Of a stretch of 64,000 bases of DNA, positions 33,918-45,041 are shown piece by piece. The translations under genes and the position numbers were made by a program. Every line of letters begins with the position of its first letter. The stretch's first letter is position 1. The notes under the pieces are model-generated. The model was not told the origin of the DNA. It did no database searches and worked only from the letters and a program-made list of their open reading frames with translations. Source of the stretch: Piscinibacter sp. (lineage in GTDB: Bacteria > Pseudomonadota > Gammaproteobacteria > Burkholderiales > Burkholderiaceae_C); assembly GCA_019635485.1 (NCBI GenBank), contig JAHBZL010000013.1, forward strand, positions 1 through 64,000. The letters run 5' to 3'.

Positions 33918-34388
33918 CGCGCGCTGCGCCTCGCGCGCGCGGTCCTGCTCGCTCAGCGGGCTGCCCTTGTCGAACACGATGCGCCAGACGCCCGGCGCCT
34001 CCTGGCGCCAGACCGAATTGAATCGCGCCACCAGCCGGCCGTCCGGATCGCGCACCGGGCCGCTGGAATGCGCCAGCGTGCCGTCGGCCAGCACGTCGAC
34101 CTGGTCGGGCTCCCACGAGAACGGCGCCGCCGGCCCGTCGAAGAACGCCTTCCAGGCGGCGGCGACCTCCGCCCTGCCGCGCAGCACGCGGTTCGGCGCG
34201 TAGAACACCGCCTGCTCGGACAGCAGCGCGACGAAGGCCGCATGGTCGCGTTGCGCCATGCTGCGCGCGAAGGCGCGCTCGGTGGCCTCCACCTGCGCGC
34301 GCAGGTCGTCCGGCGGTGCGGCCTGGGCCGGCTGCAGCGCCGCGCTCAATGCCGCCCACAGGGCCAGCGGTGCGATCCGGTCAGACAT
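33888..34388 (-). CDS. secreted SnoaL/DUF4440 (NTF2-like) protein
   Basis: 166-residue periplasmic protein. An Ala-rich Sec signal (about residues 6-23) precedes an NTF2-like cone fold. The fold opens with [20 protein letters not shown] and contains [18 protein letters not shown] and [21 protein letters not shown], typical of DUF4440/SnoaL proteins. These bind or transform diverse small molecules, and none is predictable here. The ATG overlaps the end of uvrA by eight bases, so it could be translated from the uvrA message. It overlaps the cytochrome gene at the other end. Confidence 0.82.
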
Positions 34389-37300
34389 GGCGGACTTCTC
34401 CTCGTTGCAGCACGGGCCTCAGCGCGTGCCCGGTGTGGCTGGCCCGGTGCGTGGCCAGGACTTCCGGCGCGCCGGCGACGACGACCTGGCCGCCGCGCGC
34501 ACCGCCCTCGGGCCCGAGGTCGACCACCCAGTCGGCCTCCGCGATCACGTCCAGGTCGTGTTCGATCACGACCACGCTGTGCCCGCCGTCGACCAGCCGG
34601 TGCAGCACGCGGATCAGCTTCTCGACGTCGGCCATGTGCAGGCCGACGGTCGGCTCGTCCAGCACGTACAGCGTGTGCGGCGCCTTGTTGCCGCGCCGCG
34701 TGACGTCGTCGCGCACCTTGGTCAGCTCGGTGACCAGCTTGATGCGCTGCGCCTCGCCGCCGGACAGCGTCGGCGACGGCTGGCCCAGCGTCAGGTAGCC
34801 CAGCCCGACGTCGCGCAGCAGCGAGAGCGGGTAGGAGATCGCCGGCATCGACGCGAAGAACTCGACCGCCTCGTCGACCTCCATCGTCAGCACCTCGCCG
34901 ATGTTGCGACCGCGCCAGGTGACCGCCAGCGTCTCGGCGTTGAAGCGCTGACCGTGGCAGACGTCGCAGGGCACCTTCACGTCCGGCAGGAAGCTCATCT
35001 CGATCGTGCGCAGGCCCTGCCCTTCGCAGGCCGGGCAGCGCCCTTCGCCGGTGTTGAACGAGAAGCGCGCCGGCGCGTAGCCGCGCGCCTTCGCCTCCAG
35101 CGTGTCCGCGAACAGGCGGCGGATCGTGTCCCAGAAGCCGATGTAGGTGGCCGGGCAGGAACGCGGCGTCTTGCCGATCGGCGTCTGGTCGACCTCCAGC
35201 ACGCGGTCGATGCGCTCCCAGCCGTCGACCCGTTCGCAGCCCTGCCAGTTCGGCTTGGCGCCGCGGGTGTTGATGAACTGCAGGTTGGCCAGCAACACGT
35301 CGCGGGCGAGCGTCGACTTGCCCGAGCCGCTGACGCCGGTCACGCCGACCAGCCGGCCGAGTGGCACGGCCACGTCCAGCCGCTGCAGGTTGTGCAGCGA
35401 CGCGCCGCGCAGCACGATGCGCGGCGTGCCGGCGTCGACCGGCCGGCGCGCCTGCAGCGGGTGGCGCATCGGCGCGGCCAGGAATCGGCCGGTCACCGAG
35501 TCGGCATGCGCGGCGAGGTCCCGCGTGTCGCCCTGCGCCACCAGACGGCCACCGCGCTTGCCCGCGCCGGGGCCGATGTCGATGATGTGGTCGGCGCGCC
35601 GGATCGTGTCCTCGTCGTGTTCGACGACGACCAGCGTGTTGCCCTTGTCGCCGAGCTTGTGCAGCGCGTCGAGCAGGATCCGGTTGTCGCGCGGGTGCAG
35701 GCCGATGGTCGGCTCGTCCAGCACGTAGCAGACACCCTGCAGGTTGCTGCCCAGCTGCGCGGCGAGCCGGATGCGCTGGGCCTCGCCGCCGGACAGGGTC
35801 GGCGCGGCGCGGTCCAGCGTCAGGTAGCCGAGCCCGACCTCCTCGAGGAACTCGAGCCGGCTGCGGATCTCGGCGACCACGTCGCGGGCAATGTCGGCGT
35901 CGCGGCCCTCCAGCCGCAGCGCCTCGATCCAGCGCCGCGTGTCGGAGACGCTCCACTGCGCGATCGTCGTGATGGCGTGCTGCTCGAAGGTCACGCCGCG
36001 CGAGGCCGGATTCAGGCGCGTGCCGCCGCAGTCCGGGCACGGTGCGTCGACGACGCCTTCGACCTCCGGCTCCTCCGACGGGAAACTCTGCTCGCGGCCC
36101 TTGTCGTCGTCGTCGCGCTTCGAATCGTCGTAGGCCTTGCGCTGCTCACGCGTCAGCGCGAGCCCGGTGCCGACGCAGCCGGTGCACCAGCCGTGCTTGC
36201 TGTTGTAGCTGAACATGCGCGGGTCCAGCTCGGGGTAGCTGGTGCCACACACCGGGCAGGCGCGCTTGGTCGAGAACACCTGCACTGCCCCGATGCGGCC
36301 GGTCGGCGCGCCACTGAGCATCGCGCCGTGCAGCCCGGTCAGCGGCGCGAGCAGATGCATCACGCCCTTGCCGTGCTCGAGCGTGCGCGCCAGCAGCGTG
36401 CGCAGTTCGGCCTCGTGGGCGGGGTCGATCACCAGGTCGCCGACCGGCAGCTCGAGCGTGTGCTCCTTGAAGCGGTCCAGCCGCGGCCAGGGGTCGACCG
36501 GGACGAACTCGCCGTCCACGCGCAGGTGCGTGTGGCCGCGCTGCCGGGCCCACTTGGCGAGGTCGGTGTAGACGCCCTTGCGGTTCACCACCAGCGGTGC
36601 GAGCAGACCGACATGCTCGCCCTTGTAGTCGCGCAGCAGCTGCGCCGCGATGCTCTCGGCGCTCTGCGGCCGCACCGGCGCGCCGTCCTTGACGCAGTGC
36701 TGCAGGCCGAGCTTCACGTACAGCAGGCGCAGGAAGTGCCACACCTCGGTGGTCGTCGCGACCGTGCTCTTGCGCCCGCCGCGCGACAGCCGCTGCTCGA
36801 TCGCGACGGTCGGCGGGATGCCGTACACCGCATCGACCTCGGGGCGCCCGGCCGGCTGCACGATGCTGCGCGCGTAGGCGTTCAGCGACTCGAGGTAGCG
36901 CCGCTGCCCTTCGTTGAACAGGATGTCGAACGCCAGCGTGCTCTTGCCCGACCCCGAGACGCCCGTCACCACCGAGAACTTGCCGCGCGGGATGTCGACG
37001 TCGAGCGCCTTCAGGTTGTGCTCGCGCGCGTTGACGATGCGGATCACCTCCTCGGCGGCGCGGCGCTGGTCGCGCGCCTGCTTGATCAGCGACTGCAGCG
37101 GCCGGCTCTCCTCGGCGCCGAGCGCGACGTCGTACTCCGCGAGCGCACGGCCGGTGTGCGAACCCGGGTGCCGCTTCACCTCCTCCGGCGGTCCGGCGCA
37201 GACGAGCTGGCCGCCGGCGTCCCCGCCCTCGGGGCCGAGCTCGACCAGCCAGTCGCTGGCGCGGATCACGTCCAGGTTGTGCTCGATCACGATGATCGAA

Positions 37301-40068
37301 TGCCCGGCATCGAGCAGCTTGCGGAAGGCCCGCATCAGCTTGGCGATGTCGTCGAAATGCAGCCCGGTGGTCGGCTCGTCGAACAGGTACAGCGTGCCCT
37401 TCTTCGCCGCCGGCTGCGCCGGGCCGCCGGCCGCCTCGGCCAGGAAACCCGCCAGCTTCAGGCGCTGCGCCTCGCCGCCGGACAGCGTCGGCACCGGCTG
37501 GCCGAGCTTCACGTACTCGAGGCCGACGTCGACGATCGGCTGCAGCACGCGCAGCACCTCGCGGTCGTCGCGGAACAGCGCCACCGCTTCGCTGACCGTC
37601 AGCTCCAGCACGTCAGCGATGCTGAGCTCGCGAACGATGTCGGTCGGCAGGCGGCGGTCGATCTTCACGTCCAGGATCTCGGCGCGGTAGCGGCGCCCGT
37701 CGCAGTCCGGGCAGCGCAGGTAGACGTCGGACAGGAACTGCATCTCGACGTGCTCGAAGCCGGATCCGCCGCAGGTCGGGCAGCGCCCGTCGCCGGCGTT
37801 GAAGCTGAACATGCCGGCGCCGTAGCCGCGCTGCTGCGCCAGCGGCGCGGCGGCGAACAGCTTGCGGATCTCGTCGAAGGCGCCGACGTAGCTGGCCGGG
37901 TTCGAGCGCGCCGTCTTGCCGATCGGCGACTGGTCGACGAACACCGCGTCGGCCAGCCAGTCGGCGCCCAGCAGGCGGTCGTGCTCGCCCGGCGCCTCGG
38001 TGGCCTTGCCGAAGTGGCGCTGCAGCGCCGGGTACAGCAGGTCCTGCATCAGCGTGCTCTTGCCCGAACCCGACACGCCGGTCACGCAGACCAGGTGCTG
38101 CAGCGGGAACTCGACCGCGATGTTCTTCAGGTTGTGCTCGCGCGCGCCCTCGACGATCAGCTTCGGCGTCGCCGGGCCGACCAGCCGCTTGATGCCCATG
38201 CTGACGTGCTTGCGGCCGCCGAGGTAGGCGCCGGTCAGCGTGTCGGCGCTGCGGATGTCTTCGGGCGTGCCGTCGAACACGATGCGCCCGCCGCGCTCGC
38301 CCGGGCCCGGCCCCATGTCGATCAGCCGGTCCGCGGCCAGCATCACCGCCGGGTCGTGTTCGACGACCACCAGCGTGTTGCCGGCGTCGCGCAGGCGCTG
38401 CATGGCCTCGACGATGCGGTTCATGTCGCGCAGGTGCAGGCCGATCGACGGCTCGTCGAGCACGAACATCGTGTTGACCAGCGAGGTGCCGAGCGCGGTG
38501 GTCAGGTTGATGCGCTGCACTTCGCCGCCGGAAAGGGTACGGCTCTGCCGGTCCAGCGTCAGGTAGCCGATGCCGACGTCGCAGAGGTAGCGCAGCCGGG
38601 TGCGGATCTCGTCGAGCAGCAGCTTGAGCGCCTCGTCGAGCATCGTGCTGGGCAACGAGAGCCGGTCGAAGAAGCGGCGCAGCCGCTCGATCGGGATCAG
38701 CATCAGGTCATGCACGGTCAGCCCGGGCAGCGCCTCGAGCTGCGCGCGCGACCACTGCGCGCCCACCGGCAGGAAGCGCCTTGCCGGCTCGAGCGCGGCG
38801 TCGGCATCATCCCGGCTGCCCAGGCGCCACAGCAGCGCCTCGGTCTTCAGCCGCGCGCCGCCGCAGGCGCCGCAGGGCGTGTAGCTGCGGTACTTCGACA
38901 AGAGCACGCGGATGTGCATCTTGTAGGCCTTCGATTCGAGGTACTCGAAGAAGCGCTTGACGCCGTACCACTGCTTGTTCCAGTTGCCGTTCCAGTGCGG
39001 CGAGCCGTTGATGACCCAGTCCCGCTGCGCCGCCGTCAGCTGCGACCACGGCGTGTCGCGCGGGATGCCGGCCTCGCCGCCGTACTTCATCAGGTCGTCC
39101 TGGCATTCCTTCCAGGCCGGCGTCTGCATCGGCTTGATCGCGCCGGCGCGCAGCGTCTTGCGGTGGTCCGGGATCACGAGGCCGTAGTCGACCCCGATCA
39201 CGCGCCCGAAGCCGCGGCAGGTGTCGCAGGCGCCGTAGGCGGAGTTGAAGCTGAACAGCGCCGGCTGCGGATCGGCGTAGCGCAGGTCGCTGTCGGGGCA
39301 GTGCAGGCCGGTCGAGAAGCGCCACAGCTCGGGCTCGCCTTCTTCCTTGAGCGCATACACGTTGACGCGCCCGCTGCCGCGCCGCAGCGCCGTCTCGATC
39401 GCCTCGATCGCGCGGACCTTCTCGGTGCCCTGCAGGCGGAAGCGGTCGGCCACCACGTCGAGCACGCGCCGCGGACCGGTCGGCGAGGCCACCTCGCGCT
39501 GCGCCTGCACGCGCGTGAAGCCGCTGGCCGCGAGCCACTGCTCGATGTCGGCTTCGCTGGCATCGGCGGGCAGCTCGACCGGGAAGGTCACGACCAGCCG
39601 CGGGTCCGTCGCCCGGGTGCGTTCCAGCAGCTCGGCGTGGATCGTCTCCGGCGAGTCGTGCCGCACGCGCTGCGCGGTCTGGCGGTCGAACAGTTCCCCG
39701 GCTCGCGCGAACAGCAGCTTCAGGTGGTCGTTCAGCTCGGTCATCGTGCCGACCGTGCTGCGGCTCGAACGCACCGGGTTGGTCTGGTCGATCGCGATGG
39801 CCGGCGGCACGCCGTCGACGCGGTCCACCGCCGGGCGGTCCATGCGGTCGAGGAACTGGCGCGCGTAGGCGCTGAAGGTCTCGACGTAGCGGCGCTGCCC
39901 CTCCGCGTAGAGCGTGTCGAACACCAGGCTGGATTTGCCCGAGCCGCTCGGCCCGGTGACCACCGTCATCTCGCCGGTGCGGATGTCGAGGTCGAGGTTC
40001 TTCAGGTTGTGCTGGCGTGCGCCGCGGATGCGGATCAGGCCCGAGTCGGGTTGGCGGCGGCTGTCCAT
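34381..40068 (-). CDS. uvrA: double-length UvrA (excinuclease ABC subunit A, tandem fusion)
   Basis: 1895 residues, twice the usual 940. Two complete UvrA modules are fused in frame. Walker A sites (GPSGSGKSS or GVSGSGKST) are near residues 43, 664, 1038 and 1579. ABC signatures LSGGE lie near 514, 865, 1424 and 1767. UvrA, with UvrB, scans DNA for bulky damage in nucleotide excision repair. The second module has intact Zn-finger 1 (CPVCG ... CTGC). In the first module it reads CPDSD, losing one Cys, though CDTC follows. Zn-finger pairs near each C-terminal half (CPTC/CPDC, CPAC/CDVC) are intact. No LexA-type box was recognised upstream. Large fused UvrA proteins occur in this order. Confidence 0.95.
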
Positions 40069-40217: not shown

Positions 40218-43200
40218 ATGAACAAGAACATCCCGGCCCGTCGGCGCACGTTCTCGCTGACCCTCGTCGTGGCGGCCGCGCTGCTCGCCTCCTGCGGCGG
40301 CGGTGACCCGGAGGCCACCGCCGATCCGGCCGGCGCCACCAAACGCGCCGCCGGCTTCACGCCGACCACCCCGATCCCGCTCGACGCCAATGCCCGCGGC
40401 ATGTGGTCGCCGGTCACCGCCTGGCCGCTGATCCCGCTGCACGCGGTGATGCTGCCGGACGGCCGCGTGATGAGCTACGGCACCACCGCCAGCGGCACGC
40501 AGACGGCCAACTTCATCTACGACGTGTGGGACCCGGCCGGCGGCCTGGCAGGCGGCCACCTGACGCTGGCCAACGGTACCGGCACCGACATCTTCTGCAG
40601 CTCGCAGCTGGTGCTGCCCGGCGGCGACGCGGTGTTCATCGCCGGCGGCGACAACTGGACCGGCACGGCCACGACCAACACCGGCAACAACAACTCGAAC
40701 CTGTTCAGCGTCGGCAGCAATTCGCTGACCCGGCAGAACAACATGAACCGGGCGCGCTGGTACTCCAGCTCGACCACGCTGCTGAACGGCGAGACCTACA
40801 TCCAGGGCGGCTCGAGCGGCACCGACCGGCCCGAGGTCCGCCAGGCGGACGGCGTGTTCCGCCTGCTGTCCGGCGCCAACACGAGCAGCCTGGACTTCAT
40901 GTACCCGCGCAACTTCGTCGCCCCGGACGGCCGCGTGTTCGGCTACGACAGCGTCGGGCGCATGTACTACGTCGATCCCGCCGGCACCGGCACGATCACC
41001 TCGGTGGGCCAGTTCGCCAGCGCCTACACCGGCAACGACGCGAGCGCGGCGATGTTCCGGCCCGGCCGCATCCTGCAGTTCGGCGGCAACAGCAACGGCG
41101 CGATCGTGATCGACATCCGCGGCGGCGCGCCCACGGTCACGCCGACCGCATCGATGTCGAGCCAGCGCCGCCTCGTCACCGGCACGATCCTGCCGGACGG
41201 CAAGGTGCTCGCCACCGGCGGCAGCCGCACCTGGAACCAGCTCGACCAGGTCAACAACAGCGCCGAGATCTGGAACCCGGACACCGGCACCTGGAGCGTC
41301 GGCGCCTCCGGCGTGCAGGCACGCCTGTACCACTCGATGGCCCTGCTGCTGCCCGACGCCACGGTGATGGTCGGCGGCGGCGGCGCCCCGGGCCCGCAGA
41401 ACAACACCAACTTCGAGCTGTACTACCCGCCCTACCTGTTCGCGCCCGGCGGCACCCTCGCGGCGCGCCCGGTCATCGACGCCGCACCGACGGTGATGGA
41501 CATCGGCCGCACCTACACGGTGGACGTCGCCGGTGCCGGCCCGGCCGCCCGCGTCGTGATGGTCAAGACCGGCTCGGTGACGCACAGCTGGAACATGGAG
41601 CAGCGCTTCGTCGAGCTCACCTTCGCGGCCAACGGCAACCGGCTCGCGGTGCAGGCGCCGACCCATGCGGCCGACGCGCCGCCCGGCTTCTACATGCTGT
41701 TCGTGCTGGACGGCAACGGCGTGCCGTCGGAAGCGAAGATGGTGCGCGTCAACGTCGCGCCGACGCCGAACCCGGCCACGGTGCCGACGCTCGCCGCAGT
41801 CGGCGACCGGACGGCGACGCTCGGCACGCCGACCAGCCTGCAGCTCGGCGGCAACGACCCGAACGGCGACACGCTGACCTACAGCGCGACCGGCCTGCCG
41901 CCCGGCCTGGCGCTCGACCCGGCCAGCGGCCTGATCTCCGGCACGCCGGGTGTGGTCGGCGTCTACAACGTGGTCGTCGCGGTCAGCGACGGCGTCAACA
42001 GCGCCAGCCGGGCCTTCACATGGACGGTGACCGGCACCGGTGGCGACTTCAGCGTCTCGATCCCGCTCGCCCCAAGCGCGACGGTGGCAGGCGGCAGCGC
42101 CAGCTTCACGGCCAGTGCGAACGGCGTGAACACGCAGTACAGGTGGGACTTCGGCGACGGCACGCCGGTGACGGCCTGGAGCAGCTCGCCGACCATCAGT
42201 CACGTCTTCACGCAGCCGGGGCTGTTCACCGTGACGGTGATCGCAGTGGACGCCGGCGGCATCGAGCAGCGTGCCTCGGTCGTGCAGGCCATCCACCTGC
42301 CGCTCGCGGCGGGCACGCCGACGGCCTCCGGTCCGCTCGCGCTGGCCGGCGGCCGGCTGTGGGTGGTCAACCCGGACAACGACAGCGTCTCGGTGTTCGA
42401 CACCGCAACTCGCACCCGACTGGCCGAGATCGGCGTCGGCAGCGCGCCGCGCACGCTGGCCGTGGCGGCGGACGGCAAGGTGTGGGTCGCCAACAAGCGC
42501 AGCGCGACGCTCAGCGTGATCGACCCCGGCACGCTGGCGGTCAGCCGCACGATCGCGCTGCCGCGCGGTTCGATGCCGTACGGCGTGACCGCCTCGGCGG
42601 GCGGCCTCGTACTGGTGGTGCTGGAGGGCAGCGGCCAGCTGCTGCGCTTCGACGCCGCCAGCGCGGCGCAGACCGGCAGCCTCGCGATCGGCGCGAACCC
42701 GCGCCATGTCGCGCTCGGCGGCGACGGCGCCACGGCCTACGTGAGCCGCTTCGTCTCGCCGCCGGCGCCGGGCGAATCCACCGCCGCTCCGGGCAGCGGC
42801 CGCGGCGAACTACTCACGGTGGCGACCGCCTCGATGAGCCTGGTGCGCACGGTCGCCCTCGCCCACAGCAGCAAGCCGGACTTCGAGAACCAGGGCCGCG
42901 GCCTGCCGAACTACCTCGGCGCGGCCGCGATCTCGCCGGACGGCGTCGCGGCCTGGATGCCGTCCAAGCAGGACAACATCCAGCGCGGCCTGGGCCGCGA
43001 CGGCCTGCCGCTGAACTTCCAGAACACCGTGCGCGCGATCAGCTCGCGCGTCGTGCTCGCCAGCGGCAGCGAGGACCTGGCCGCACGCATCGACCACGAC
43101 AATGCCAGCCTGGCCAGCGCCGCGGTCTTCGACCCGAAGGGCCTGTACCTGTTCGTCGCCCTCGAGACCAGCCGCGAGGTCGCGGTGGTCGACGCCCACG

Positions 43201-45041
43201 GCAAGCGCGAGCTGTTCCGCTTCGGCACCGGGCTCGCGCCGCAGGGCCTGGCGGTTTCGGCCGACGGTCAGACACTGTACGTGCACAACTTCATGGACCG
43301 CAGCGTCGACGAGCACGACCTGCGGCCGCTCGCCGCCGGCCAGTTCAGCGCCCCGCTGCAGGCGACGCTGGCCAGCGTCGCGGTCGAGAAGCTCGCACCG
43401 ACGGTGCTGCGCGGCAAGCAGCTGTTCTACGACGCCGCCGACCCGCGCCTCGCGCGCGACCGCTACATGAGCTGCGCGAGCTGCCACAACGACGGCGGCC
43501 AGGACGGCCGGGTCTGGGATCTGACGGGCTTCGGCGAGGGCCTGCGCAACACCATCGCCCTGCGCGGGCGCGGCGGCATGGGCCAGGGCTTCCTGCACTG
43601 GAGCAACAACTTCGACGAGGTGCAGGACTTCGAAGGCCAGATCCGCTTCCTGGCCGGCGGCAGCGGCCTGATGTCCGATGCCGACTTCGCGGCCGGCACC
43701 CGCAGCCAGCCGCTCGGCGACCCGAAGGCCGGACGCTCCAGCGACCTGGACGCGCTGGCCGCCTACCTGAACTCGCTGGACGGCTTCGACGCCAGCCCCT
43801 ACCGCCCGGCGGCGGCGACGCTGTCGGCCGCCGCCAGCGCCGGCAGGACGCAGTTCACGACGCTGAACTGCGCGTCCTGCCACGCCGGAAGCGCCTTCAC
43901 CGGCAGCGGCGCCAACACGCTGGTCAACGTCGGGACGCTGAAGCCCACCAGCGGCCAGCGCCTCGGGGCGGCGCTGACCGGCATCGACGTGCCGACCCTG
44001 CGCGACGTCTGGGCCACCGCGCCGTACCTGCACGACGGCTCGGCCGCCACGCTCGAGGCGGCGGTGCGGGCGCACAGCGGCGTCACGATCAGCGACGCCA
44101 ACCTGGCGAACCTGGTGGCCTACCTGCGCGAGATCGGCGGCGACGAGGCCGCGGCGCCCGCGCCGGCGGGCAGCGGCACCGGCCTCGCCGCGAGTTACTT
44201 CAACAACCTGACGCTCTCCGGCACGCCGGCGCTGACGCGCACCGAGGCGATCGACTTCGACTGGGGTTCGGGCGCCCCGGCAGCCGGCGTGAACGCCGAC
44301 AACTTCTCGGTGCGCTGGACCGGCAAGCTCACGGTGCCGGCCACCGGCAGCTACCGCTTCCAGACCGAGTCGGACGACGGCGTGCGGGTCTGGGTCAACG
44401 GCGCAGCGCTGATCGACAACTGGACCGACCACGCCCCGACCGTGGACACCAGCGCGCCGGTCAACCTGGTCGCCGGCAGCCAGGTCGACGTGGTGGTCGA
44501 GTTCTACGAGAAGGGCGGCGGCGCGGTGATGCGGTTGCGCTGGCTCGCGCCCGGCGAGACGGATTTCGTCGCCGTGCCCGCGGACCGGCTGAGCCCGCCG
44601 CCGGTCACCACCGGCAGCGGCCTGGTCGGCAGCTACTTCAACAACACGACGCTCAGCGGCAGCGCGGTGCTGACGCGCACGGAGGCGATCGACTTCAACT
44701 GGGGCACCGGCTCGCCCGGCGGCGGCGTGGCGTCGAACAACTTCTCGGTGCGCTGGACCGGCACGGTGCTCGCGCCGACCACCGGCACCTACCGCTTCCA
44801 GACCGTGTCGGACGACGGCGTACGGGTCTGGATCAACGGCGTGCAGGTGATCAACAACTGGTCGGACCACTCGGCCGCGACGAACACCAGCGGCAACGTC
44901 AGCCTGACCGCCGGCCAGCGCTACGCGGTGCGCGTGGAGTACTACGAGAAGGGCGGCAATGCCGTGATGCGGCTGCGCTGGCGCCTGCCGGGAACGACGA
45001 CCTACAGCGCGATCCCGGCGGCGAGCCTGTTCACGAACTGA
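40218..45041 (+). CDS. galactose-oxidase-like copper radical oxidase fused to di-haem cytochrome c and PA14 domains (lipoprotein)
   Basis: 1607-residue lipoprotein (lipobox LLASC, then GGG). Residues about 40-500 form a kelch propeller plus DUF1929 domain. The galactose oxidase active-site set is all present: Cys127 (FCSSQ), Tyr182 (RWYSSS), Tyr371-His372 (LYHSM) and His456 (VTHSW). A cadherin/He_PIG-like domain, a PKD domain (YRWDFGDGTPV) and a YVTN-type propeller follow. Two haem sites, CASCH near residues 1086 and 1218, mark a MauG/CcpA-like module. Two PA14 domains (RFQTESDDGVRVWVNG and its repeat) end the protein. It is divergent from uvrA. An extracellular alcohol or sugar oxidase that passes electrons to its own haems is my inference. 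Confidence 0.88.
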   Translation: MNKNIPARRRTFSLTLVVAAALLASCGGGDPEATADPAGATKRAAGFTPTTPIPLDANARGMWSPVTAWPLIPLHAVMLPDGRVMSYGTTASGTQTANFIYDVWDPAGGLAGGHLTLANGTGTDIFCSSQLVLPGGDAVFIAGGDNWTGTATTNTGNNNSNLFSVGSNSLTRQNNMNRARWYSSSTTLLNGETYIQGGSSGTDRPEVRQADGVFRLLSGANTSSLDFMYPRNFVAPDGRVFGYDSVGRMYYVDPAGTGTITSVGQFASAYTGNDASAAMFRPGRILQFGGNSNGAIVIDIRGGAPTVTPTASMSSQRRLVTGTILPDGKVLATGGSRTWNQLDQVNNSAEIWNPDTGTWSVGASGVQARLYHSMALLLPDATVMVGGGGAPGPQNNTNFELYYPPYLFAPGGTLAARPVIDAAPTVMDIGRTYTVDVAGAGPAARVVMVKTGSVTHSWNMEQRFVELTFAANGNRLAVQAPTHAADAPPGFYMLFVLDGNGVPSEAKMVRVNVAPTPNPATVPTLAAVGDRTATLGTPTSLQLGGNDPNGDTLTYSATGLPPGLALDPASGLISGTPGVVGVYNVVVAVSDGVNSASRAFTWTVTGTGGDFSVSIPLAPSATVAGGSASFTASANGVNTQYRWDFGDGTPVTAWSSSPTISHVFTQPGLFTVTVIAVDAGGIEQRASVVQAIHLPLAAGTPTASGPLALAGGRLWVVNPDNDSVSVFDTATRTRLAEIGVGSAPRTLAVAADGKVWVANKRSATLSVIDPGTLAVSRTIALPRGSMPYGVTASAGGLVLVVLEGSGQLLRFDAASAAQTGSLAIGANPRHVALGGDGATAYVSRFVSPPAPGESTAAPGSGRGELLTVATASMSLVRTVALAHSSKPDFENQGRGLPNYLGAAAISPDGVAAWMPSKQDNIQRGLGRDGLPLNFQNTVRAISSRVVLASGSEDLAARIDHDNASLASAAVFDPKGLYLFVALETSREVAVVDAHGKRELFRFGTGLAPQGLAVSADGQTLYVHNFMDRSVDEHDLRPLAAGQFSAPLQATLASVAVEKLAPTVLRGKQLFYDAADPRLARDRYMSCASCHNDGGQDGRVWDLTGFGEGLRNTIALRGRGGMGQGFLHWSNNFDEVQDFEGQIRFLAGGSGLMSDADFAAGTRSQPLGDPKAGRSSDLDALAAYLNSLDGFDASPYRPAAATLSAAASAGRTQFTTLNCASCHAGSAFTGSGANTLVNVGTLKPTSGQRLGAALTGIDVPTLRDVWATAPYLHDGSAATLEAAVRAHSGVTISDANLANLVAYLREIGGDEAAAPAPAGSGTGLAASYFNNLTLSGTPALTRTEAIDFDWGSGAPAAGVNADNFSVRWTGKLTVPATGSYRFQTESDDGVRVWVNGAALIDNWTDHAPTVDTSAPVNLVAGSQVDVVVEFYEKGGGAVMRLRWLAPGETDFVAVPADRLSPPPVTTGSGLVGSYFNNTTLSGSAVLTRTEAIDFNWGTGSPGGGVASNNFSVRWTGTVLAPTTGTYRFQTVSDDGVRVWINGVQVINNWSDHSAATNTSGNVSLTAGQRYAVRVEYYEKGGNAVMRLRWRLPGTTTYSAIPAASLFTN

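Follow-up and report, generated by a model that had tools for sequence, protein, structure and literature searches.

Why should a copper-radical oxidase (CRO) carry two haem sites on its own chain? The question is raised by a gene at positions 40218 to 45041 of the window, the 64,000-nucleotide stretch of Piscinibacter sp. contig JAHBZL010000013.1 that we analysed. An original prediction, made from the sequence letters alone, had read this gene as a CRO fused to a cytochrome c module, with five galactose-oxidase active-site residues, two CASCH haem sites and two PA14 domains on a lipoprotein. All of these elements are present: the five residues are confirmed by alignment to a solved enzyme and by 90/90 fused relatives, the CASCH motifs start at residues 1086 and 1218, and the lipobox LLASC ends on Cys26. 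Absent from the original list is what lies between the two redox parts, namely He_PIG and PKD domains and then a second, YVTN-type propeller. The layout had also been held to be undescribed, and full-text literature searches of open-access papers found no such enzyme and no description of a CRO fused to c-type haems.

The N-terminal domain is clearly of the galactose oxidase type. A Pfam search gave 90 bits for the E-set PF09118, and the best CRO hits in the PDB were the galactose oxidases 9g8h and 9g43 (E-value 2.4e-46). In the alignment, Cys127, Tyr182, Tyr371, His372 and His456 fall on the active-site motifs of the solved bacterial galactose oxidase 9g8h, and the full AA5 hallmark set was found, that is the Cys-Tyr pair, the axial Tyr and two copper His on a kelch propeller plus E-set. 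The GlxA equivalog NF052501 scored 138.8 bits against a cut-off of 800. Structure prediction had been proposed as a check, and an AlphaFold2 model of the domain from 28 sequences reached a mean pLDDT of 92.4 and a pTM of 0.93. When this model was searched with Foldseek, galactose oxidases ranked first (TM-score 0.89 to 9g43 and 0.90 to 1gof), with GlxA (4unm) at 0.84. Fold and alignment together predict that the five side chains converge on one copper site. The residue spacings had been described as close to those of the fungal enzyme; this is true of Tyr371 to His456 (85 residues, against 86 in fungal galactose oxidase), whereas the 55 residues between Cys127 and Tyr182 exceed the 44 between the fungal Cys228 and Tyr272.

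The C-Y-Y-H-H set was found in 90/90 fused CROs, four of these genes being frame-split or contig-cut, and in 36 of the 38 stand-alone CROs, the other two having Ser in place of Cys; both counts leave out L213 and L214, rows of at least 620 residues. A chance match of motifs is ruled out by the profiles, the structure and this conservation. Comparing fused with stand-alone CROs for residues conserved in the fused set alone gave no convincing electron path. A crude pattern search found a lipobox-like motif N-terminal of the CRO in 69/93 fused frames.

The haem region had been called MauG/CcpA-like, a likeness that holds loosely. PF03150 (37.3 bits, cut-off 25.6) and PF00034 (34.5 bits, cut-off 21.3), together with two CxxCH sites, place it in the dihaem cytochrome c peroxidase (CCP)/MauG superfamily, but the canonical CCP motif set of FWDGR with Gln at W+10 and Glu at W+20 is lacking. 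As a comparison set we used eight canonical CCPs from the same bacterial family. All eight have a Met 14 residues past the His of YFHDG, and the window family has a His there; MauG uses a Tyr as distal ligand of its C-terminal haem, and here the place of Met or Tyr is taken by His1286. Haem 2 is therefore predicted to be bis-His. A canonical CCP or MauG domain is not supported by the residues at W+10, W+20 and the haem-2 ligand. At haem 1, His1127 stands at the place of the Phe before Trp, which we take to line the distal pocket in CCP structures.

These features are conserved. Among 82 dihaem rows (the window and named loci), the letters of the haem-1 CxxCH are kept in 81 and the Cys and His columns of haem 2 in all 82, as are His1127, Trp1128 and His1286. 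A wider set of 86 fused rows has the HW pair in all 86, His at the haem-2 ligand slot in 84, and two strict CxxCH sites in 84; in L093 and L096, both from Rubrivivax metagenome-assembled genomes (MAGs), the haem 2 site reads CxxxCH.

A model of the YVTN-dihaem part had a mean pLDDT of 74.8 and a pTM of 0.82, the propeller being mostly confident, and the folds nearest to it were those of hydrazine synthase beta (5c2v_B) and of 1l0q, a YVTN protein from an archaeal S-layer. The curated hydrazine synthase beta-gamma profile scored 66.3 against a cut-off of 1250, and no third Cys for haem gamma-I was seen in residues 1057-1316, which hold only the four CxxCH cysteines. Overall, the module resembles hydrazine synthase beta-gamma more than it does MauG. 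The same genome also encodes, on contig C34, a stand-alone YVTN-dihaem protein of 812 aa (L182) that is a distant homologue of the module, without the HW pair (judged by eye) and without the His at +14. Further afield, a protein annotated as a lactonase-family beta-propeller on Anoxybacillus plasmid NZ_CP015439.1 is 29% identical over the YVTN-dihaem part. Coordinates of all features are collected in Table 1.

Table 1. Features of the fused gene, with positions in the 64-kb window.
Feature	Position	Strand	Basis
Whole gene, 1607-aa lipoprotein: CRO - He_PIG - PKD - YVTN propeller - dihaem - PA14 - PA14	40218..45041	+	frame, Pfam and PDB searches
Signal peptide with lipobox LLASC; lipid-modified Cys26 at 40293-40295	40218..40304	+	sequence
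CRO domain, residues 56-513: kelch propeller and galactose oxidase (GO)-like E-set	40383..41756	+	Pfam, PDB alignment, AlphaFold2, Foldseek
Cys127, thioether partner	40596..40598	+	alignment, conservation
Tyr182, cross-linked radical Tyr, equivalent of Tyr272	40761..40763	+	alignment, conservation
Tyr371-His372, axial Tyr and copper His	41328..41333	+	alignment, conservation
His456, second copper His, in E-set domain	41583..41585	+	alignment, conservation
He_PIG Ig-like domain	41784..42032	+	Pfam
PKD domain	42069..42284	+	Pfam
YVTN-type beta-propeller, residues 694-1050	42297..43367	+	Pfam, PDB search, model, Foldseek
Dihaem domain, residues 1057-1316, CCP/MauG superfamily	43386..44165	+	profile matches, alignment
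Haem 1 site CASCH (1086-1090)	43473..43487	+	sequence, alignment
His1127-Trp1128: presumed haem 1 distal-pocket His; Trp at inter-haem Trp position	43596..43601	+	alignment
Haem 2 site CASCH (1218-1222)	43869..43883	+	sequence, alignment
His1286, 14 residues past His1272 of YLHDG: haem-2 distal-ligand slot	44073..44075	+	alignment with CCPs
PA14 domain 1	44169..44591	+	Pfam
PA14 domain 2	44616..45008	+	Pfam

The fusion is widespread. Within 200 genomes of the family, relatives over most of the length were found at 59-71% identity in G197, G005 and G108, and profile mapping recovered the order CRO, Ig-like, YVTN, dihaem in 17 fused proteins besides that of the window; beyond those 17, L050 is frame-broken and L063 is cut by a contig end. 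A draw of 399 family genomes gave the CRO E-set in 41 (72 matches) and the dihaem module in 43 (57 matches). Judged by position and frame length, 38/72 CRO matches share one open frame with the module, a count that includes the frame-broken L050; on inspection G347 proved to be a 39th such fusion and G330 was split over two overlapping frames. Moreover, genome contigs were scanned with the dihaem alignment and the best 80 of 578 relatives kept. A CRO match lay in the same frame in 75 of these 80; it is a fragment only at cut contigs, and the L104 gene has a frame break. The remaining five (L074, L076, L077, L115 and L130) are each cut at the 5′ end. That the fusion is a peculiarity of a single genome is ruled out by these best 80 of 578 loci and by the 399-genome survey.

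Named hosts include Piscinibacter, Rivibacter, Azohydromonas, Methylibium, Steroidobacter, Leucothrix, Brevifollis and Prosthecobacter. MAG loci assigned to Acidobacteriota, Planctomycetota, Deinococcota and Chloroflexota may be binning errors, and the one from Chloroflexota is cut before any CRO. Across the phylum, 10 of 349 genomes have the CRO E-set, the window's own included, and among the other nine G467, of the same class, carries a fusion: a 3186-aa frame (L214/L222) with a long N-terminal part, then the CRO, then the dihaem module at its end. That gene is followed by a CCP-like gene. The fused gene that Comamonadaceae bacterium OTU4NAUVB1 carries on a plasmid bears no annotation beyond 'discoidin domain-containing protein', and genes of this kind are therefore easily overlooked.

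The survey also turned up variants of the layout. Rivibacter subsaxonicus has a 2568-aa frame (L035/L083) in which a single CRO precedes two HePIG-PKD-YVTN-dihaem-PA14 units; these have four CxxCH sites between them and dihaem parts that look identical, either a true duplication or an assembly effect. Elsewhere (L034/L070) it has three tandem CRO genes, one alone, one with two PA14 domains and one fused to the dihaem module. In seven proteins from family genomes (L047, L051-L056) a PKD-YVTN-dihaem module is fused to an LVIVD-type propeller in place of the CRO, the label coming from Pfam for L047 and for the rest from a profile built on four of these proteins, L051 having no LVIVD match at E 1e-4. 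The LVIVD-type part has three invariant His in all seven and may therefore be a metal enzyme of an unknown kind. None of the seven has the His at +14, and six have a His at +15.

How often the two halves were joined was addressed with trees built by FastTree or a quick IQ-TREE run. FastTree, run on 130 CROs, placed the fused members in four or more groups interleaved with stand-alone CROs: A, which is the window's, B, C, which is most like galactose oxidase, and D, from Verrucomicrobiota and others. With L214 and the split genes counted as fused, the label fused or stand-alone needs 8 changes on this tree, 6 of them forced by starred branches. A single clade of fused CROs was rejected by the approximately unbiased (AU) test (p-AU 0.0002, at a cost of 643 log-likelihood units) on 50 of the 130 rows, L214 not among them. 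These were 33 fused rows, about every second or third per type, and 17 stand-alone rows, nine distant or long-branched ones having been dropped by hand, every second of the rest taken and five added.

The dihaem tree tells a similar story. Across its 73 rows, all of types A-C, 15 changes of CRO type are required, of which well-supported branches force few (C 4, A 3, B 2), and AU tests reject one clade for A (p 0.016), B (0.014) and C (5e-5); the grouping by CRO type used in these swap tests was read from the CRO tree after that tree was seen. Moreover, G005 holds two fused genes whose dihaem domains are 89% identical and whose CROs are 34% identical, and the modules linked to LVIVD propellers form one clade of 7 rows (support 98). 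Given the AU tests, the changes of CRO type and the G005 gene pair, the module as read from these alignments has been re-paired repeatedly with different CRO types, and a single ancient fusion without re-pairing is not supported by the AU tests on either tree. This repeated pairing in many bacteria suggests an exchange of electrons or peroxide between the haems and the copper site.

Lastly, we turned to the neighbourhood of 91 de-duplicated fused loci, within 5 kb, near copies such as L117/L118 remaining in the set. The profiles for SCO and cytochrome c were built from fused loci and may favour these over the controls, whose flanks vary. A SCO1/SenC gene lies near 33/91 fused loci against 4/34 stand-alone CRO loci (Fisher p 0.008), and a mono-haem cytochrome c near 15/91 against 1/34 (Fisher p 0.07), the loci not being independent in either comparison. 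Flanks of 1.2 kb on both sides are available for 70 of the 91 loci, and there SCO is found in 29 and cytochrome c in 13. All 15 cytochromes have CxNCH, and SCO is also present at 14 of these 15 loci. Pfam searches bore out the names of two MbnP-CCP proteins, one SCO and one cytochrome c, the last with 21.5 bits against a cut-off of 21.3. By CRO type, SCO occurs at 23/32 loci for C, 6/13 for B, 4/29 for A, 0/16 for D and 0/1 for E, and the mono-haem cytochrome c is confined to type C (15/32). On the OTU4NAUVB1 plasmid the fused gene is followed by the cytochrome c gene, with which it shares 8 bases, and SCO comes 13 bases later. Neither SCO nor mono-haem cytochrome c is present near the 7 LVIVD-linked loci.

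An MbnP-CCP-like gene stands beside 7/91 fused loci. Six of these loci, all in Verrucomicrobia (L100, L117, L118, L125, L139 and L144), have it immediately before the fused CRO gene, at most 117 bases away or with overlapping frames, which suggests a copper-handling unit. In the window, a divergent gene upstream (34381-40068, minus strand) encodes a double-length UvrA-like protein of 1895 aa, and 6 other fused loci, one of which was inspected, have a related frame on their upstream side. A scan of the gene region found no promoter, and its 2 terminator-like sites compare with 1.8 expected by chance.

What, then, might the haems do for the copper site? A CRO is activated by the loss of one electron, which gives the Cu(II)-radical form. 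The reading that we favour, if tentatively, is that of a surface-anchored CRO whose chain also supplies a haem partner for peroxide and one-electron steps. The group oxidised by the CRO domain would be a primary alcohol, an aldehyde or a sugar, probably in a polysaccharide to which the PA14 domains bind, and the YVTN-dihaem unit would fill the role that a separate haem peroxidase has for other CROs. Haem 1, with its distal His, would react with H2O2 made by the CRO, while haem 2 would exchange electrons with a small cytochrome c, as source or as sink, with the Trp between the haems as a relay. In this way the Cu(II)-radical form, the active one, would be maintained in the CRO and peroxide consumed where it arises; the SCO chaperone would load the copper. 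The sequences show the copper site of the CRO, the two haem sites and the ligand change predicted for haem 2, the repeated joining of the two parts and, in many relatives, SCO and cytochrome c genes close by; the substrate, what happens at haem 1, which way electrons flow and any contact of the copper centre with the haems are what we infer.

Several observations weigh against this reading. Two Ig-like domains lie between the CRO and the haems, and the dihaem half of the YVTN-dihaem model is weak and of low confidence. The Gln at W+10 and Glu at W+20 that 7/8 canonical CCPs possess are missing in the window family, and two closely related fused genes (L046 and L205) carry Ala at the predicted haem-2 ligand. 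Among the 399 genomes, 15/57 module matches have no upstream CRO, some of them at contig ends, and the seven CRO-less modules that were examined carry the LVIVD-type propeller instead. The 64-kb window itself has no SCO gene and no such cytochrome c gene, three SCO genes being found elsewhere in the genome. Moreover, SCO lies beside stand-alone CROs at L224 and L228, and L191 has two stand-alone CROs with both SCO and cytochrome c and no dihaem module, so that these neighbours may serve the CRO alone.

The same evidence can be read in other ways. The original prediction had offered direct electron export as one role for the haems, and the cytochrome c beside 15/91 fused loci leaves room for it. 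The protein would then be a copper-radical dehydrogenase. Haem 1 and haem 2 would hand its substrate electrons on to a dedicated cytochrome c, the reaction would consume hardly any O2, or none, and make little H2O2, and surface alcohols or sugars would feed the respiratory chain or an extracellular acceptor, O2 not being needed. A bis-His haem 2 would suit such exchange, and the inter-haem Trp position is invariant in the 82 rows. However, the characterised proteins with this dihaem fold that are known to us draw on cytochrome c for the electrons with which they reduce peroxide or NO, or use H2O2, rather than receiving electrons from a dehydrogenase, and the cytochrome c is limited to type C CROs, plus the single stand-alone case at L191. 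Cytochrome fusion does give some other oxidoreductases direct electron transfer, according to passages of PMC6472588. On balance we consider this, the chief rival, possible but less probable than a haem partner for peroxide and one-electron steps. Alternatively, two independent enzymes may share one adhesive surface scaffold and have no direct chemistry with each other, the haem module acting on another substrate, as it must in the LVIVD-linked proteins. Proteins with the module are long and built of many domains, among them PA14, F5/8 type C, lectin, PKD and He_PIG, and LVIVD-linked versions of the module do exist. Set against this are the repeated re-pairing of the module with different CRO types and the retention of both centres, neither being lost in 90 fused CROs and 86 fused dihaem rows, and we regard mere co-residence as unlikely.

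The other role first proposed, generation or repair of the Tyr-Cys cofactor by haem chemistry, is the weakest option, since the five residues are intact in 36 of the 38 stand-alone CROs, which have no such module. Here the haem domain would act in cis as a maturation factor that helps to form the Tyr-Cys cross-link, as MauG and MbnH act on a partner Trp, with SCO supplying the copper. The cross-link of galactose oxidase forms with copper and O2 alone, and the catalytic residues of MauG and CCP are missing from the module. The SCO neighbours and the MbnP-CCP-like genes speak for such a role, as does the dependence of GlxA maturation on DtpA and Sco (PMC4736821), and yet we hold it to be improbable, more so than any of the other readings.

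This fused family, with SCO often and cytochrome c sometimes as a neighbour, makes the question of a one-electron activation partner for bacterial CROs testable in a single protein. If electrons do leave via the haems, it would be the first CRO known to us that is able to work without O2, with uses in electrodes and in sugar oxidation.

How does the fused protein compare with known systems? The word 'cytochrome' is absent from the main text of a GlxA phylogeny paper (PMC3543389) and of an AA5 survey (PMC11267884), and 'galactose oxidase' is absent from the main text of a CCP_MauG network paper (PMC6405878). With galactose oxidase and other AA5 enzymes (1gof; 9g43 and 9g8h from Pseudoarthrobacter) the CRO shares the fold and all five active-site residues, while no haem module is named in the titles of the CRO structures among the matches listed. 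The window's CRO type also lacks a Trp at the place of Trp290 (judged by eye), which 32/33 type-C fused CROs keep. Bacterial dihaem CCPs and MauG share with the haem part the two CxxCH sites, PF03150 and PF00034 above their cut-offs and the inter-haem Trp position, and differ in having Gln/Glu at W+10/W+20 and Met or Tyr, rather than His, at haem 2. Hydrazine synthase beta and gamma likewise place a beta-propeller before a dihaem CCP-like unit with a bis-His second haem (predicted in the window protein), and gave the best sequence match to the N-terminal haem part among the matches listed; the window protein lacks the third cysteine of haem 1, and its partner is a CRO and not an alpha subunit. 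The bis-His haem (gamma-II) of that homologous dihaem subunit has been proposed to take electrons from a cytochrome c, according to passages of PMC12607021.

Other close systems are CROs that work with a separate haem enzyme, and the statement that galactose oxidase normally uses O2 alone was incomplete in this respect. In Streptomyces, GlxA works with a haem peroxidase and a Sco copper chaperone: PMC4736821 reports that GlxA needs both Sco and the DyP peroxidase DtpA in order to mature, that DtpA consumes GlxA-made H2O2, and that GlxA and DtpA showed no strong physical interaction and no activity boost over horseradish peroxidase (HRP). There, however, the partners are separate proteins, and DtpA is a DyP peroxidase and not a dihaem c-type cytochrome. 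The tandem Perox-AlcOx pair of fungi is likewise a CRO that a dedicated haem partner brings to the active radical form, activation of the alcohol oxidase by the haem peroxidase being supported by electron paramagnetic resonance (EPR) in Colletotrichum (in passages of PMC9770985), but it consists of two secreted fungal proteins with a class II peroxidase, whereas here one bacterial chain carries c-type haems. Separate haem partners of CROs are known already, in these accounts, from fungi and Streptomyces; the fusion of a CRO to a dihaem module is the part of which our searches of open-access papers showed no description.

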